33,296 nt of DNA, from the NCBI GenBank assembly GCA_902772435.1, contig CACYAX010000011.1, positions 1-33,296 of the forward strand, given 5' to 3'. The DNA comes from an uncultured Coriobacteriaceae bacterium (GTDB lineage: Bacteria > Actinomycetota > Coriobacteriia > Coriobacteriales > Atopobiaceae). The first letter of the stretch is position 1; the number at the start of each line of letters is the position of its first letter. Both the position numbers and the translations under genes were made by a program. Below the pieces are notes generated by a model. The model was not told the origin of the DNA, did not search any database, and saw only the letters and a program-made list of their open reading frames with translations. Of this stretch, positions 220 to 18,700 are shown piece after piece.

Positions 220-642
220 GCGAGTGGTTCGCCTTAGGTAAGGACTCGAAACAGTCTCCTTGCCCCGAGAGGGGCCGGCCAGCCCTTGCAAACCACAGGA
301 CGGGATTGGCAATTGCGTGTGCCATGAGCCCTCGAGATACCAGAATGCACGATTCGCCCGAGTTAAAGCCTCATGTTCGTACTCTATGCTGCGCATCTTG
401 TGGTATTAGATAATTTTTTGATGCATGAACTGGGGTTTTGTGCAGCATGTGGCAATCGTTGGAACTAAAAATACGAATATGCACCCTTAACTCGGGCGAG
501 AAGTTGTCATGAGGACGTTTTAGGGCTAAATGGGCGCATGACAGCGTTCCATGTGTCGCTCGATAGCAAAAGAGTCGATCAGAGCGCCATAGTGCGTGCG
601 GTTTGGTTGATGGCGCGACGTCCCGCCATGCCCATGGTCCGT
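220..642. other. Non-coding stretch with one 148-bp inverted-repeat element
   Basis: This 423-base gap lies between the 3' ends of two convergent genes, so it needs no promoter for either of them. Its main content is the inverted-repeat element at 353-500. The bases between 383 and 470 are clearly richer in A and T than the surrounding coding DNA. A small palindrome (CCCCGAGAGGGG, near 263-274) follows the first gene but has no T-run. I see no convincing coding region: the open frames here have no ribosome binding site and no family resemblance. Confidence 0.6.
353..500. repeat. 148-bp inverted-repeat element, copy 1
   Basis: The left arm (353-382) and right arm (471-500) are inverted copies that match at 23 of 30 positions. 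The outer 13 bases after the first, TCGCCCGAGTTAA, are identical in both arms and in both arms of the second copy at 13600-13747. The left arm is nearly identical to the second copy (28 of 30), while the right arm has drifted around its middle. The core between the arms contains a further 7-bp inverted pair (ATGCTGC at 386-392, GCAGCAT at 442-448), so a transcript would fold into a long branched hairpin. There is no transposase and no clear target-site duplication. Confidence 0.8.
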
Positions 643-12079: not shown

Positions 12080-13240
12080 ATGGCCAATCGTTTCGTCCTC
12101 AACAACATCTCGTATCACGGCAAGGGCGCCATCAAGGAGGTCCCCGGCGAGATCTTGCGTCGCGGCTTCAAGAAGGTCTTCGTCGCCACTGACCCCGACC
12201 TCGTGAAGTTCGGCGTGACCTCCAAGGTCACCGACCTCCTCGACGAGGCTGGCATCGCCTGGAGCCTGTACTCCAACATCAAGGCCAACCCCACCATCCA
12301 GAACGTCAAGGACGGCGTCGAGGCCTTCAAGGCCGCCGAGGCTGACTGCATCGTCGCCGTGGGCGGCGGCTCCGCCATGGACACCGCCAAGGGCATCGGC
12401 ATCATCATCTCCAACCCCGAGTTCGCTGACGTCGTCAGCCTCGAGGGCGTCGCCGACACCAAGAACCACGCCGTCTTCACCATCGCCGTGGCCACCACCT
12501 CCGGCACCGCCGCTGAGGTCACCATCAACTACGTCATCACCGACGTGGAGAAGGAGCGCAAGTTCGTGTGCGTCGACGTCAACGACATCCCCGACGTCGC
12601 CGTCGTCGATCCCGACATGATGGCCTCCATGCCCGCCGGCCTCACCGCCGCCACCGGTATGGACGCCCTGACCCACGCCATCGAGGGCTACACCACCCGC
12701 GGTGCCTGGGAGCTCTCCGACATGTTCCACTTCAAGGCCATCCAGCTCATCTCCCAGAACCTCCGCGACTCCTACGCCGAGGCCAAGAGCGGCGAGCCCG
12801 GAAGCGGCCGTGAGGGCATGGCTCTCGGCCAGTATGTGGCCGGCATGGGCTTCTCCAACGTGGGCCTCGGCATCGACCACGCCATGGCGCACACCCTCTC
12901 CGCCCACTATGACACCCCGCACGGTGTCGCCTGCGCCATGCTGCTCCCCATCGCCATGGAGTACAACAAGCCCGTCGTGACCAAGCGTCTCGCTGAGGTC
13001 GCCGTGGCCATGGGCGTCGACACGACCGGCATGACCGAGGATGAGGCCGCCGACGCTGCCATCGCTGCCGTCAAACAGCTCTCCGCTGACGTCAACATCC
13101 CCAAGACCTGCGACGGCTTGGTTGAGGCCGACCTCGACCAGCTTGCGACCGACGCCCTCAACGACGCCTGCTATCCGGGCAACCCGCGTGAGGCCGATCA
13201 CGAGACCGTGAAGGAGCTGTTCCGCAAGATCATGGCCTAG
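12080..13240 (+). CDS. Iron-containing alcohol dehydrogenase, lactaldehyde reductase (FucO) type
   Basis: The 386-residue protein is a group III metal-dependent alcohol dehydrogenase. The start MANRFVLNN and later blocks match E. coli FucO closely by memory: GGGSAMDTAKGIGI (NAD binding, near residue 95), SGTAAEVTINYVITD, KFVCVDVNDIP, AATGMDALTHAIEGY (metal-binding Asp and His, near residue 195), YVAGMGFSNVGLGIDHAMAH, and HYDTPHGVACAMLLP with the last metal histidine. FucO reduces lactaldehyde to 1,2-propanediol during fucose or rhamnose fermentation; related enzymes act on other short aldehydes and diols, so the physiological substrate is uncertain. Codon use is extremely C-biased, which suggests high expression, as expected for a fermentative redox enzyme. 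A GAGAGAGGAAA ribosome binding site precedes the ATG. The last 18 coding bases form part of a large inverted repeat with downstream DNA. Confidence 0.92.
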   Translation: MANRFVLNNISYHGKGAIKEVPGEILRRGFKKVFVATDPDLVKFGVTSKVTDLLDEAGIAWSLYSNIKANPTIQNVKDGVEAFKAAEADCIVAVGGGSAMDTAKGIGIIISNPEFADVVSLEGVADTKNHAVFTIAVATTSGTAAEVTINYVITDVEKERKFVCVDVNDIPDVAVVDPDMMASMPAGLTAATGMDALTHAIEGYTTRGAWELSDMFHFKAIQLISQNLRDSYAEAKSGEPGSGREGMALGQYVAGMGFSNVGLGIDHAMAHTLSAHYDTPHGVACAMLLPIAMEYNKPVVTKRLAEVAVAMGVDTTGMTEDEAADAAIAAVKQLSADVNIPKTCDGLVEADLDQLATDALNDACYPGNPREADHETVKELFRKIMA

Positions 13241-13355
13241 GGGCTCGGGGTTATTGCACAAACGTCCTCGAAAACGGGGGCCGAGCTTTGCTCGGCCCCC
13301 GTTTTCTGCGGAATGTTTGCTCCACAACCCCGAGCCCCTAGGCCATGATCTTGCG
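13223..13355. repeat. 133-bp quasi-palindrome with perfect 30-bp arms
   Basis: Positions 13223-13252 and 13326-13355 are perfect inverted copies over 30 bases. The left arm includes the last five sense codons and the stop codon of the dehydrogenase gene. The DNA between the arms is also imperfectly palindromic and is centred on a 17-bp terminator hairpin. A third copy of the inner 14-mer CTAGGGGCTCGGGG lies in direct orientation at 13390-13403. Confidence 0.9.
13270..13306 (+). terminator. Terminator of the iron alcohol dehydrogenase gene
   Basis: A perfect 17-bp stem runs between 13270-13286 and 13290-13306 with a TTT loop; the descending arm ends in GTTTTC. The A-run on the ascending side means it could act in both directions. 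Confidence 0.85.
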
Positions 13356-13429
13356 CGGGAGGGCCTCCCTTGGGCTTGGCGTTGGGTTGCTAGGGGCTCG
13401 GGGACCGGCATCGCTCGGGGCCCTCCGCT

Positions 13430-13550
13430 GGGCTCGCGCTTCGCGCATCGCCTTCGCTGCGCTGTCCTCGGCCGCTTCGCGGCCCTCGTGGGGGGCTCGC
13501 GCTGCGCGCATCGCCTTCGCTGCGCTGTCCTCGGCCGCCTCGCGGCCCTC
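13430..13550. repeat. Two tandem 58-bp units, 63-bp period
   Basis: Units 13430-13487 and 13493-13550 match at 56 of 58 bases and are separated by five bases. Each unit contains the internal palindromic word GCCGCTTCGCGGC or a one-base variant. There is no sign of a coding role. Confidence 0.85.
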
Positions 13551-13599
13551 ATCTAGCTTGAAGACTCCATTTGCTTGGTCTTTCGGCTACTGAGAGTTA

Positions 13600-13747
13600 T
13601 TCGCCCGAGTTAATGCCTCATGTTCGTATTTCATTTGGCTAATACGTGTTTGTACCCGATGCTTACCTGCGGAAACGCCTGATTAGTCTGCACGATTACG
13701 ATTACGGTTACAAAAAAGTACGAACGTGAGGCATTAACTCGGGCGAA
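13600..13747. repeat. 148-bp inverted-repeat element, copy 2
   Basis: Left arm 13600-13629 and right arm 13718-13747 are inverted copies matching at 28 of 30 bases. The arms are homologous to those at 353-382 and 471-500, and the total length is the same (148 bp). The 88-base core is unrelated to that of copy 1; it contains the short tandem run ACGATTACGATTACGGTT near 13691-13708 and a CTAAT/ATTAG inverted pair. No open frame, transposase or clear target duplication is visible. Confidence 0.85.
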
Positions 13748-13786
13748 CAAACGCAGAACCGTTTTGGAACGGTCAAATGAGCCATG

Positions 13787-13832
13787 ACAAAGCGGCGTTG
13801 ATCCGCAAATTGCCAGATTCACGCCGCTTTGT
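13787..13832 (-). terminator. Hairpin after the yerC-like gene
   Basis: ACAAAGCGGCGT (13787-13798) pairs perfectly with ACGCCGCTTTGT (13821-13832) across a 22-base loop, 40 bases past the stop codon of the minus-strand gene. The T-run is short, so this could also be a bidirectional barrier between convergent units. Confidence 0.5.
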
Positions 13833-13871
13833 TGCCACCACATGGGTTCTTGGGATACAGATCAGGCCAGG

Positions 13872-14174
13872 CTACCGTTCGAGCCTCTCCAGCACGAGGC
13901 GATATCCTCCCGCTTCGCCGTTCAGGCACTTGGAGACGCGGCTCACGGTGGTCGAGGAGGCTCCCGTTGCTTTGGAGACCTCGATGTAGGAGGCGCCCTG
14001 GTGCAGGAGCGTCGCCACCTCGAGGCGCTGGGCGAGGTCCGTTATCTCGCGCGTGCTCAGGAGGTCGGCGAGCAGTGCCTCGGCCTCTTCGGGCGTCTCG
14101 AGGGCACAGAATGCCTCGTGCAGGCGCCGCATGCTGTCTGCGGACGTTGCGGCACTGTCTGCGTTGTGTGTCAT
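13872..14174 (-). CDS. TrpR-related YerC/YecD family DNA-binding protein
   Basis: The 100-residue protein is a small helical regulator. Residues about 40-90 contain the TrpR-like helix-turn-helix: LSTREITDLAQRLEVATLLHQG, then SYIEVSKATGASSTTVSRVSKCL. This is the usual signature of the YerC/YecD family, which has a TrpR fold but lacks known tryptophan regulation. The length is typical. An AAGGAGG ribosome binding site precedes the ATG. It lies 53 bases downstream of the DUF2974 hydrolase gene on the same strand, so the two are probably co-transcribed. The target operator is unknown. Confidence 0.88.
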   Translation of the reverse strand: MTHNADSAATSADSMRRLHEAFCALETPEEAEALLADLLSTREITDLAQRLEVATLLHQGASYIEVSKATGASSTTVSRVSKCLNGEAGGYRLVLERLER

Positions 14175-14227
14175 GCGTATGCCTCCTTGCCGGGCTTAGC
14201 AGCGTCGTGTCTCGTGGTTCGTGTCGC

Positions 14228-15565
14228 TTATCCTTGCTCGTCTTCTGCCGCGGGCAACTCGCGATCGACGGCATCTGAGGGCTCTTCCTGCACGTCAGCA
14301 GGCTCTTCGAGGCGCGACGTGCCGTCAAGCCGGGCAAGGAAGGCGTCGCGCGCGGTGCGCAGGATCGCCGTGGCGCTGTCTATAGCCGTATTCCCGTCGG
14401 TCATCCAACCGCGGTCGCGCGCAGACTCACGGGCGACCTTGAAGGCTTGGGAGAGGCTCTCGCGCACCGAGAGGGTGGTCATGTCGAGCGACGAGGTGAC
14501 CACGGTCTCCACGAGGCTCATGCCGAGCTCCTTGGTGCGCGTGTCCATGTTGTTGAGCGCCGAGAGCACGGTGCTCACGCTTTGCACGGAGGACACGAGG
14601 TCCTCGGTGGTCTTGGCGCCGCCCGATTCGAGCGCGTCGAAGAGCTCGTCCACGAGCGTGCCGCGGTCCTCGAGGGGGACCTCGGAGGTCCAGGTGCTGA
14701 TTGCATTACGGATCGCCTTGCTGGAGGTGGTGAGATCGCCCGCCTCGTCGGCGCCGAAGGGCGTCACTTGCCAGGTGAAGGGGTCATGGGCGCGCATGCT
14801 GCTCGAACTGGTCTTGATGATCGTGCGGGGGTCGTCTTCACGCTCGAAGATCATGCCGATGACGTCGTCTTCGGGGACGATGCGGCTATACCGTTCTCCG
14901 AGCAGCATCTGGGGACTGACGGGCATGAGCTCGGGGGAGATGCCGGGGCCGTCGTTGCTCCAGACGCGGTTGATGACGGGCAGGAGATCGATCGGACACG
15001 AGAGCGCGCCATAGACGGCGAGGTTGCCACCCTTGGAATGGCCGCCCACATAGAGCTTGCGTCCGCGTTTGAGTGCCAGCTTTGCTGCATCTTCGAGGTA
15101 GAGCGCGGCAAGGCGCTGCGACTCGGTCATGGAGAAGGACAGCATGAAGTCCTCGCGCCATCCCACGAGCGTGGAGTCGGTGCCGCGGAACGACACGTAG
15201 GTCTCGGTGTCCGTCAGGTCGATCTGCACGGCCGCGAACTGCAGGGCGCGCGTCTCGTCGAGGACGTCCATGTAGCTGTGCAGGCGCGCGTGACCGAAGC
15301 GACGTGAGTCGGCGAGCCTGGTGAGCAGGGAGGGGTCGAGCTTCGCGAGCGAGCGCACGCGCAGGTCGACGTCGCCGCCCGTGTCTTCAAGCACTGCCTG
15401 GCACGCATGGGCAAAGCTTACCGATCCCGATTTCGGGGGAGGCACGATGCCCGTGAGGTCGAGATAGGAAAAGGTGGCGAGGATGATGTTGTCCACGTCG
15501 TTTATGGGGCGCTCGTCGAAGGTGATGTCTCCGCGCCAGTTGAGGTAGTCGATGATGTTCGCCAT
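14228..15565 (-). CDS. DUF2974 (Mbeg1-like) alpha/beta-hydrolase
   Basis: The 445-residue protein starts MANIIDYLNWRGDITFDERP, the usual beginning of DUF2974 proteins. The lipase-like nucleophile elbow is YVGGHSKGGNLAVYGAL (GxSxG type, serine near residue 190), preceded by TYVSFRGTDSTLVGWREDF, which resembles the lipase class 3 strand before the elbow. VPEDDVIGMIF near residue 245 could supply the acid residue. The C-terminal 170 residues are helical and acidic and unlike the core. No signal peptide is seen, so it is probably cytoplasmic; the substrate is unknown. The start is preceded by TGGGGGA, a modest ribosome binding site. It is divergent from addB and precedes the yerC-like gene. Confidence 0.8.
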   Translation of the reverse strand: MANIIDYLNWRGDITFDERPINDVDNIILATFSYLDLTGIVPPPKSGSVSFAHACQAVLEDTGGDVDLRVRSLAKLDPSLLTRLADSRRFGHARLHSYMDVLDETRALQFAAVQIDLTDTETYVSFRGTDSTLVGWREDFMLSFSMTESQRLAALYLEDAAKLALKRGRKLYVGGHSKGGNLAVYGALSCPIDLLPVINRVWSNDGPGISPELMPVSPQMLLGERYSRIVPEDDVIGMIFEREDDPRTIIKTSSSSMRAHDPFTWQVTPFGADEAGDLTTSSKAIRNAISTWTSEVPLEDRGTLVDELFDALESGGAKTTEDLVSSVQSVSTVLSALNNMDTRTKELGMSLVETVVTSSLDMTTLSVRESLSQAFKVARESARDRGWMTDGNTAIDSATAILRTARDAFLARLDGTSRLEEPADVQEEPSDAVDRELPAAEDEQG

Positions 15566-15761
15566 GAATCCCCCAGGTCGTTGGTCCATGACGCTAGTGT
15601 ACCCAAGTGCCATGGCGAAGTTGCGCCGGATCCCGTTCACCATGAAATCGCACGCTGGGCGACGGGCGTTGGCCCAGACGGGTGAGCGTTCTCTGTGGGC
15701 GTGCCGATTTGTGTCCGCATGACGCGCTACCATGGAATACCTACGACATCGAGGGAGGGCC

Positions 15762-18700
15762 ATGGCGCTTCACATCACATATACCAACGATCAGCATCTC
15801 GTGAGCGCAGCGGCAGCTGACGCGCTGGGCCAGATGCTGGAGAGAACGGGGCACGTGAGCCTGATCGTCCCCAATTTCTCGCAGGCACTCGAGGCCCAGT
15901 CGGTCCTTGCCGACAGGGGAGAGCTCACCTTGGGCGTCACCACCTCCACGCTGAGCGCGTGGGCTGACGAGCGCTGGGGTGCCTGGGGTGACGGGAGCAG
16001 CTTCGTCTCGGGGCCGGAGCGCATCGCGCTCATGCGCGTCGCGCTCGATGCGACGGAGTGCACCCTTGCGAAGACGTCGGGAACGCTCGACGCGCTCATC
16101 AGCCTTGCCCGTGAGGCACTTGTCTACCTGCCCATCGACGGCCTCCTGTCTCCCCTGTGCGCGGAGCCTGGCGCGGGATCGCTCTCCCCGGGCGAGCTCG
16201 ATGCCTGCCGTGTGCTGGGCACCTACCAGAAGCTGCTCGGCGCCCGCGGGCTCATCGAGCCTTGCGAGGCGATGCTCTCCCTGGCGTCACGGCTGCCGTC
16301 GGCCGAGCCCCTCGTGGTCAGCGGCGTGTCGTCACTCTCGCAGGCTGCGTGCGAGCTTCTGGCTGCGCTTGCCCAAACAACTGAGGTGACGCTCTGCCTC
16401 GCTTCTTTCGGTGGCCCCTCGGACGCCCTCGTCGAAAAGCTGGCTGCACGGCTGACCCGTGAGGCGCGGCGTCGCGGGGTAACGGTACGCGACGCGCGTG
16501 TGGACGTCCCCCAAGCTGGCCTAGGCGCTGCGCAGGAACTCGCGGGTCTGCGGGACCGGCTCTTCAGGGACGCGGCCTGCTATGAGCCGCTGCTTCCCGT
16601 GGGCCAGGTCAGGCAGCTTTTACCGCTCGGCCCGCTGGCGGAATGGGAGGCGGTCGCGCAGGAGATATGCGCCCACGAGGTACCGGCAGGCCAGTCTGTC
16701 GTCGTGGCGGTGGCTGACGTCGACGCGGCGTGGCGCTCGCTGGCGCCCAAGCTCGCTGCGCGGGGCGTTGCCGTGCGGGTGAGCCTGCGCGAGCGTGAGG
16801 CGCACAACCAGACCGTGCGCGCCTTCATGGCCTTTGCCGAGACGGTCGCCGAGCTGGCTACTCTCAACGCCACGTGGCCCGAGCCCGTGGACGGCCCAGA
16901 GGGCAAGGTCCCGCAGCTCGGGGACATGTCGTGGTGGCCGCCCCAGAGCCTGACCGACTTCCTGCTGAACGATATCGCGCAGGTGAGCGCCGCACAGGCG
17001 TGGGACCTCGACGCGAAGTGGCGCGGCAACCGCGTCCTCACGCCAGCCAAGGTGCTCGAGCAGCTCCAGAAGGTGAGCCTGACCTCGCGGCCCGTCGCGC
17101 AGGCGACGGCCTCGGTGCTGCGCGGCCGTATCGGCGCGGCAGCAGGCCAGCTCGCCCGGGGGCTGCAGGAGAGCGGGGAGGGCCATGAGGAGGCCATCGC
17201 CGCGCTCGGCATCATCACCGACTGTGCCCGCACGGTGGGCGCGGTTCTCTCTGCTGGTAAGGGGGCGGGCCTGCCCGAAACGGGGAGCTCCGAGGTCGAG
17301 CAGCTCGCCGCGCGCGTGAGCCTGGTCTCGGAGGTCGTGGAGCGCTCCCTGCTCGTCTCGCGCCGCACCCTTGGCCCCGATGACGCAGCGTGCCAGGTCA
17401 GGATCTGCAGCCGTGCTGAGGCAGCGGCGCTCGCCCCGGGTTCGGCAGACGTGCTCATGCTCTGCAACCTGACGGCCAACGAGTGGCCGCTCGCGCCCCG
17501 AGACGACGCCGCGTCGGCGCTGCTCGCGCATGCGGGCCTCGACGCTGCCGATGATCCGCTTGACGTTGCCCGCCTGCAGCTCCATGCGCTGCTCGCGGTT
17601 CCCCGGAGTGCTGTGGTGCTCGAGCGCTGCGCGCACGACGCCGATGCGCACGAGGCCTATCCTGCCGTCATGTTCTCCGAGATCGCCGCGTGCTACGGCA
17701 TGACGTCGGAAGACATGGCGTATGCCGATGGGCCGCTCGCCCCCCAGGTTCTTGCGGAGGCCGAGCTCTCGCGGCTCTCCTCGTCTGCGGGCGTGCTTCC
17801 CACCACGCGGGAGGTGCTCGAGAATGCCCCGACGGGCGTGATCGGCGAGGCCGCGTCAAGCATGATCATCGTGCCGCGGCCGGGCGAGGCCGAGCTGCCC
17901 GGGGGCCTCCCGTCGCTTTCGGCCTCCCAGATCGAGTCGTACCTCGAGTGCCCCTACAAGTGGTTCACCCTGCGCCGCCTCGGCTTGGGCGACGTGGACG
18001 CCACGTTCTCGCCGCTGCAGATGGGCTCCTTCGCGCACCGCGTGCTCGAGGTGGCGCACCGCAGGCTCGCGCAGCAGGCAGCGGTGGACGCCGGGCTCGT
18101 GGCGGAGGGTGAGCTGCTCGACATCGTGGGCGGTCCCGTCTCGTTCATCCCGGGCTCGCACGTGGCGAGCGAGAACCTCGCCTTTGCCCACGTGCTCGTG
18201 AACACGGAGTTCGACTTCCACCTCATGCACCAGCGGCAGCGCGCCACTATGCTCGCGGCCCAGTCACTCGTCCCCCATACGGCGACCGAGGAGTATCGCC
18301 TCGGCCTTCACCGCGCTGAGCTGCTCTCGGTCATGGATTACGAGCTGGGGGTGCTCGAGGGCTTCAACCCGCGATACTTCGAGCTGCGCTTCGGCGGTTC
18401 CAAGCCCGACGCGCGCCACGTCACGTACGCCGGGGCCGATTTCGTGGGCAGCATCGACCGCGTTGACGTGGACGCCCATGGCCGTGCCGTGGTGATCGAC
18501 TACAAGCACAAGCGCATGCAGGGCTTTGCCGCGGAGTACGACGTCTTCTCCGAGGGCGCGCCCGCCGATTGCCAGGGGTTCGTGGTCCCGCGCCGCGTGC
18601 AGTCGCTCATCTACGCGCAGGTGGTGCGCAAGCTCTTCCCCGACCTCAAGGTGGTCGGCGCGGTCTACCTCTCCACCATGGGCGACTCTGCCACAGACCA

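Follow-up and report, generated by a model that had tools for sequence, protein, structure and literature searches.

An inverted-arm element of near-fixed length with phased AT/GC composition in Coriobacteriia, possibly REPIN-like and wrapped by protein

Two copies in the window and their family in the genome

The window, by which we mean the whole stretch of 33,296 nucleotides that was analyzed, contains two 148-bp elements, at 353-500 and 13600-13747, both present where the first-pass annotation had located them. An iron-containing alcohol dehydrogenase gene lies upstream of the second element; its nearest named match among plasmid-collection records comes from Collinsella aerofaciens (82%), which fits a Coriobacteriia origin. 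Within window 13240-15763, an Mbeg1-like gene adjoining the same element is oriented, relative to the alcohol dehydrogenase gene, the other way round from most sister species, which marks the neighborhood of the element as rearranged. The gene order adjoining the window element also differs in a comparison with G000, the genome that contains the window, and the sites are therefore not comparable. The features of the two copies are as follows.

353-500, no strand: element copy 1, family A (match to model R1 at 352-501)
354-381, plus strand: left arm of copy 1
429-440, plus strand: weak variant of the central motif in copy 1, ACTGGGGTTTTG, about 11 bp off the dyad, which may be due to chance
472-499, minus strand: right arm of copy 1, differing from its left arm at 5 of 27 positions
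13557-13600, no strand: left flank of copy 2 within the phase-carrying stretch (evidence at the level of the family)
13600-13747, no strand: element copy 2, family A, consisting of left arm, core and right arm (match to model R1 at 13599-13748 on both strands, 116.1 and 100.4 bits)
13601-13628, plus strand: left arm of copy 2, TCGCCCGAGTTAATGCCTCATGTTCGTA
13666-13677, plus strand: central motif of copy 2, CCTGCGGAAACG, a variant of the order-wide CCTGCGGTTTTG, with its AT run at most 1 bp from the dyad (13673.5)
13719-13746, minus strand: right arm of copy 2, inverted, differing from the left arm at one position (CATG/CACG)
13747-13790, no strand: right flank of copy 2 within the phase-carrying stretch (evidence at the level of the family)

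Each of the four arms in the window contains the arm core TCGCCCGAGTTAA (354, 487 on the minus strand, 13601, and 13734 on the minus strand), which has no other exact occurrence there, and tolerance of up to two mismatches yields just the same four matches, compared with 0.64 expected by chance; 1 of 100 shuffled windows reaches four. A whole-genome search of the G000 draft assembly (2.54 Mb in 312 contigs) found 18 paired copies, hereafter family A, and the reversed control of the paired pattern gave no match anywhere in that genome, so that the family is clearly not a product of chance at this scale. The multicopy family proposed in the first-pass annotation, which had allowed that the two copies in the window might be the only ones, is borne out by these 18.

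The arms of family A are 27 to 28 bp long, inverted and 115 to 117 bp apart. Measured between the outermost bases of CGCCCG and CGGGCG, the inner length was 142 bp in one copy, 143 bp in 7 and 144 bp in 10, consistent with the length constraint suspected earlier. In about 300 kb of fetched sequence, the arm profile found inverted pairs 115 to 117 bp apart and just three other matches, namely, one lone arm (contig C49) and two weaker direct-repeat arms beside the element on contig C170. At the latter locus (L057, 3368-3591), the two extra A-type arms are in direct orientation, 114 bp apart, and adjoin a full element.

As had been pointed out, the cores are AT-richer than their surroundings: the two in the window have a GC content of 42% and 40% compared with 66% for the window, and the mean for family A cores is 49% compared with 65% for the contigs. 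The copies are intergenic according to a simple home-made gene caller, from which position and gene orientation are to be taken as hints only. The description of the cores as unrelated holds for most pairs, which are no more alike than shuffled sequences (median, 52% versus 50%), but one pair reaches 85%, a few reach 60 to 66%, most of the cores carry a related motif at the dyad, and together they share a phase.

Mobility, cousin families and paired arms

The elements are mobile or duplicative, as evidenced by a duplication confined to the element on contig C29 and by three sister species that lack a copy at an orthologous site; here too the annotation is supported. On C29, a distance of 1.5 kb separates two inversely oriented copies, with arms 93% and cores 85% identical and flanks at 22 to 40%, the random level. 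On one side the homology ends at the arm, and on the other it continues for about 5 bp more. The 410-amino-acid frame between these copies gave no Pfam match. The second line of evidence comes from a cousin family in G005, in which cores are up to 78% identical and flanks align, with gaps, at the level of unrelated DNA. The genes on either side of the G005 element on contig C125 are conserved in G013, G015 and G002, and the gap between them measures 327 bp with the element in G005 and 127 bp without it in the other three. The excess over the element is about 70 bp, and the exact insertion event is therefore not pinned down by the gap lengths. In G003, the orthologous gap is occupied by a different long palindrome.

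Cousin families were detected with a covariance model built from 15 family A copies. A second family in G000 has arms TGGACGCAAGTGCTTCTTATGCGTC and likewise a near-constant spacing, and more families were found in the same genus, in G005 (TGGACAAAGTTGGGGCTATGCGTG), G003, G008/G012/G014 and G011. The strict family A pattern was absent from 59 other genomes of the order, and the family A arm gave nothing more than single low-scoring matches in the genome_contigs and viral_contigs collections. The G005 cousin comprises eight arm pairs exactly 104 bp apart, plus one unpaired match at the 3-mismatch limit. All 8 copies are 129 bp long, and their motif-oriented cores differ by 37% on average, an upper figure given that one of the eight is probably misoriented; in other words, the length is kept while the sequence drifts. 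One cousin element in G000 lies within a block on contig C94 (L106, 1080-5317; L105, L078-L080) that is 98 to 99% identical across four species, ends about 130 bp past the element and marks a recent horizontal transfer. The block was also considered as a source of transposase and rejected on its gene content (aldolase, mannose-6-phosphate isomerase and RmlD-like genes).

The two arms of one element resemble each other more than they resemble the arms of other elements. In family A, they differ at 1.5 of 27 positions within an element and at 3.2 between elements of one subfamily (0 of 10,000 permutations), and in the G005 cousin the corresponding values are 0.38 and 1.86 (p 0.0006). This likeness results either from copying of one arm into the other, which a fold-back stage would permit, or from joint selection.

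AT/GC phase and the central motif

Averaging over 36 half-elements revealed AT-rich positions spaced about 10 bp apart throughout the cores and across about 45 to 50 bp of each flank, locked to the arms. Phase power was 0.435 in the cores and 0.345 in the flanks, compared with 0.074 and 0.076, respectively, at the 99% level of phase-rotated controls, and in both cases none of 2,000 rotations reached the observed value. The rotation keeps the periodicity of each sequence and breaks the common phase alone. Left cores, right cores, left flanks and right flanks each pass this test by themselves, the copies being nonindependent samples whose kinship is handled by the separate tests alone. The flanks of the cousin families are phased as well (power, 0.373 versus 0.105 at the 95% level; 0 of 2,000 rotations) and are in register with those of family A at an offset of 1 to 2 bp (r, 0.57 to 0.59).

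The period in family A cores and flanks is 9.6 to 9.8. At the peaks of the rhythm, A and T interchange (TTTT, AAAA and TTAT at the dyad), which looks like a bending constraint more than residual homology. Core identity is nonetheless slightly higher than in AT/GC-preserving shuffles (0.33 to 0.34 versus 0.29 to 0.30), and part of the common core phase may be residual homology, although the flanks are not homologous. The phase suggests a signature of wrapped DNA, which would also explain the fixed length of the element. The phase of the flanks could instead stem from insertion into bent DNA and not from function.

At the center of the element, 13 of the 18 family A copies have CCTGCGG-WWWW-G or a close variant, located no more than about 1 bp from the dyad; two copies lack a clear central motif, and in a few it is displaced. 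Among 100 genomes of the order, 77 have the 12-mer CCTGCGGTTTTG, with up to 16 sites per genome, and the reversed control of this 12-mer, which is not matched for codon usage in a set of sites that are partly coding, is mostly absent. Of 86 distinct sites examined, 30 sit in strong inverted repeats, the arms of which are specific to the genome concerned. Over all 86, AT/GC phase extends from about -75 to +70 of the motif, with a period of 10.4 to 10.8, and is gone outside these limits. At the level of single genera, with nine sites each, periodicity was not significant in G022, G074 and G066, and G019 had other periods, probably from its own repeats. A search of the literature on the central motif and on Coriobacteriia repeats found nothing relevant.

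The motif also occurs upstream of an IS1182-type transposase gene (L121), where it is bordered by a conserved GC-rich hairpin on one side and a TATAAT box on the other, and a near-identical sequence recurs in several species (L135, L152, L159 and L160). Given this location, several kinds of mobile DNA may use the central motif as a host-factor site. The arms around it are sometimes palindromes themselves, e.g., TTGCGGGGAAACGTTTCCCCGCAA and AAACTGTGCCTACCTACAGGTATACAGAGTTT (L180-L188 in G019; L190-L207 and L144 in G074/G066). The idea that the motif forms an apical hairpin loop with covarying closing pairs was dropped, as neighboring positions were not complementary above background in the 30 strong inverted repeats and the 56 other sites.

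A proposed wrapped complex and its alternatives

On balance, and with modest confidence, we favor the reading that this is a REPIN-like, nonautonomous element whose function, movement or both are mediated by a wrapped nucleoprotein complex. A family-specific site of about 27 bp, present in two inverted copies, brackets a core of near-fixed length, and core and flanks seem to be constrained in their AT/GC phase and not in their sequence. A protein complex would have some 230 bp of duplex bent around it, and its dyad would coincide with the central motif. A protein encoded elsewhere would duplicate the unit upon recognizing the two inverted sites in a fixed helical setting, while the arms would stay alike through mutual copying or joint selection, both of which a hairpin or cruciform stage could provide. 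Possibly, the same complex moves the element, and a role for the host is conceivable. Gyrase is considered as one candidate for the wrapping, not for the mover. The first-pass annotation is partly supported by these data; the AT/GC rhythm of about 10 bp, the order-wide central motif, the covariation of the arms and the cousin families with other arms go beyond it.

REPINs, which are REP doublets that form hairpins, are associated with RAYTs (Bertels and Rainey 2011, PMC3116915) and have conserved inverted ends around a spacer that is poorly conserved but important in its length, together with compensatory changes and an extragenic location (PMC3116915). Likewise, the present element has two conserved inverted ends around a spacer, in 18 pairs in G000, with a constrained spacer length and compensatory changes on both sides; it is extragenic and multicopy and replicates as a unit. 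In contrast to REPINs, it has longer arms (27 bp) and a greater total length, shares a central motif and carries AT/GC phase through core and flanks. With the BIME and REP sequences of enterobacteria it has in common that they are intergenic palindromic units of alternating orientation and proposed nucleoprotein sites, but its sequence is unrelated, it is strictly paired at one spacing and its length is more regular, whereas BIMEs are mosaic arrays.

A more far-reaching proposal, which we regard as possible but doubtful, is that these elements form an undescribed mobile class that is widespread in the order, with family-specific arms whose helical spacing is fixed, a dyad motif in common, about 230 bp of core and flanks that are fixed in phase and free in sequence, and an enzyme that moves them. 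Their heritable information would then be largely a DNA-wrapping code. If the phase is functional, the elements would record, naturally and in replicate, a bacterial DNA-wrapping complex whose dyad, arm positions and period are precise, and the identity of a site-specific DNA wrapper in Coriobacteriia chromosomes would become directly testable. Under the same condition, the elements would show that a linked RAYT is dispensable for the existence of REPIN-like doublets, and a bending pattern would be kept while the copies look unrelated, so that ordinary similarity searches would miss them.

Alternatively, the element might be a strong site for DNA gyrase (type II topoisomerase) that has spread, like BIME-2 or the phage Mu site, with the phased DNA wrapping the enzyme and the element controlling local supercoiling. 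REP and BIME repeats are reported targets of gyrase. BIMEs are reported to bind several proteins (PMC2817692), and the gyrase motif of E. coli covers 130 bp, with a 10.75-bp GC periodicity on both sides of a center of about 36 bp (PMC6379681). The elements resemble this motif and the strong Mu site (PMC6379681) in their symmetric AT/GC periodicity of about 10 to 11 bp over 130 bp or more; the symmetric phased pattern over about 130 bp that characterizes gyrase sites is present in them, and the phase around the order-wide motif spans about 145 bp. The conserved 27-bp arms, however, are not a known need of gyrase, the family A period is 9.6 to 9.8, and the family A phase, at about 230 bp, exceeds one gyrase footprint. 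Furthermore, templates derived from the element do not clearly single out the annotated cut site in phage Mu, where dyad-centered templates score below average and an arm-centered template gives a z of about 2, far from the top rank. We therefore find this alternative unlikely.

An ordinary MITE of a DDE transposase, with drifted cores, an inherited fixed length and a flank phase that reflects a preference for bent target DNA, seems quite unlikely. Bacterial MITEs such as ERIC and Correia elements are short, noncoding and multicopy and have inverted ends, and the present elements share these features, together with mobility and the occurrence of several families per genome. MITEs, however, keep similar cores and usually have target duplications. 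Here, the cores have mostly diverged at fixed length, and no target-site duplication was seen in the 18 copies at any boundary 0 to 40 bp out for lengths of 2 to 9 (best z, 3.4 among 280 tests). The element also has no transposase inside, and the earlier supposition that it depends on something elsewhere stands. Neither a long copy bounded by A or C arms nor an autonomous transposon with such arms was found in these incomplete draft assemblies. Moreover, the arms are kept and covary while the cores are saturated, and core phase agrees with flank phase.

The shared architecture and the presence of Y1 transposases in all eight genomes searched would suit a genuine REPIN mobilized by a Y1 transposase (RAYT) whose gene lies elsewhere in the genome, yet we consider this unlikely. 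None of 19 Y1 loci in these genomes has the arms or the exact central 12-mer in the surrounding sequence, within about 1.5 kb on each side (less at contig ends; a distant RAYT acting in trans lies outside this range), no RAYT is near any copy, and several Y1 loci, including the one in G000, are flanked by other repeats. By inspection, family A arms begin with neither of the REP tags GTAG and CGTC, one of which adjoins a small palindrome in each REPIN end. Several of the RAYT-like Y1 transposases (L169 on G000:C166; L278-L294) have flanking repeats of their own, e.g., CAAAGGACCGACGG in G000. Finally, a structured RNA with a long stem and a variable loop, as entertained in the first-pass annotation, is highly improbable: the stems are long and nearly perfect, with changes on both sides, but no Rfam family matches the window at gathering scores or the element region at E up to 5, arm mismatches have no strand preference (A.C plus C.A, 8; G.T plus T.G, 9), nothing pairs next to the central motif in other genomes, and the AT/GC phase runs on into the flanks.

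Apart from the proposed wrapped element, the window holds a second, different long inverted repeat at 13223-13355, at the 3' end of the alcohol dehydrogenase gene, with 41-bp arms and a 51-base loop. Its right arm duplicates the end of this gene in inverted orientation, and its loop is a terminator-like hairpin with the borders GTCCTCGAA and TTCTGCG. In sister species, the end of the alcohol dehydrogenase gene carries the same type of loop between different, locus-specific and mostly perfect arms (L215, 1372-1497; L219, 1385-1488; L221, 402-514). A further element type in G005 (L108, 1512-1623; L111, 3583-3691) has a similar loop of 55 to 56 bases (GACCTCTGTAGC...GCGGCGAAAGCG), flanked by unrelated, near-perfect inverted arms of 27 to 28 bp.
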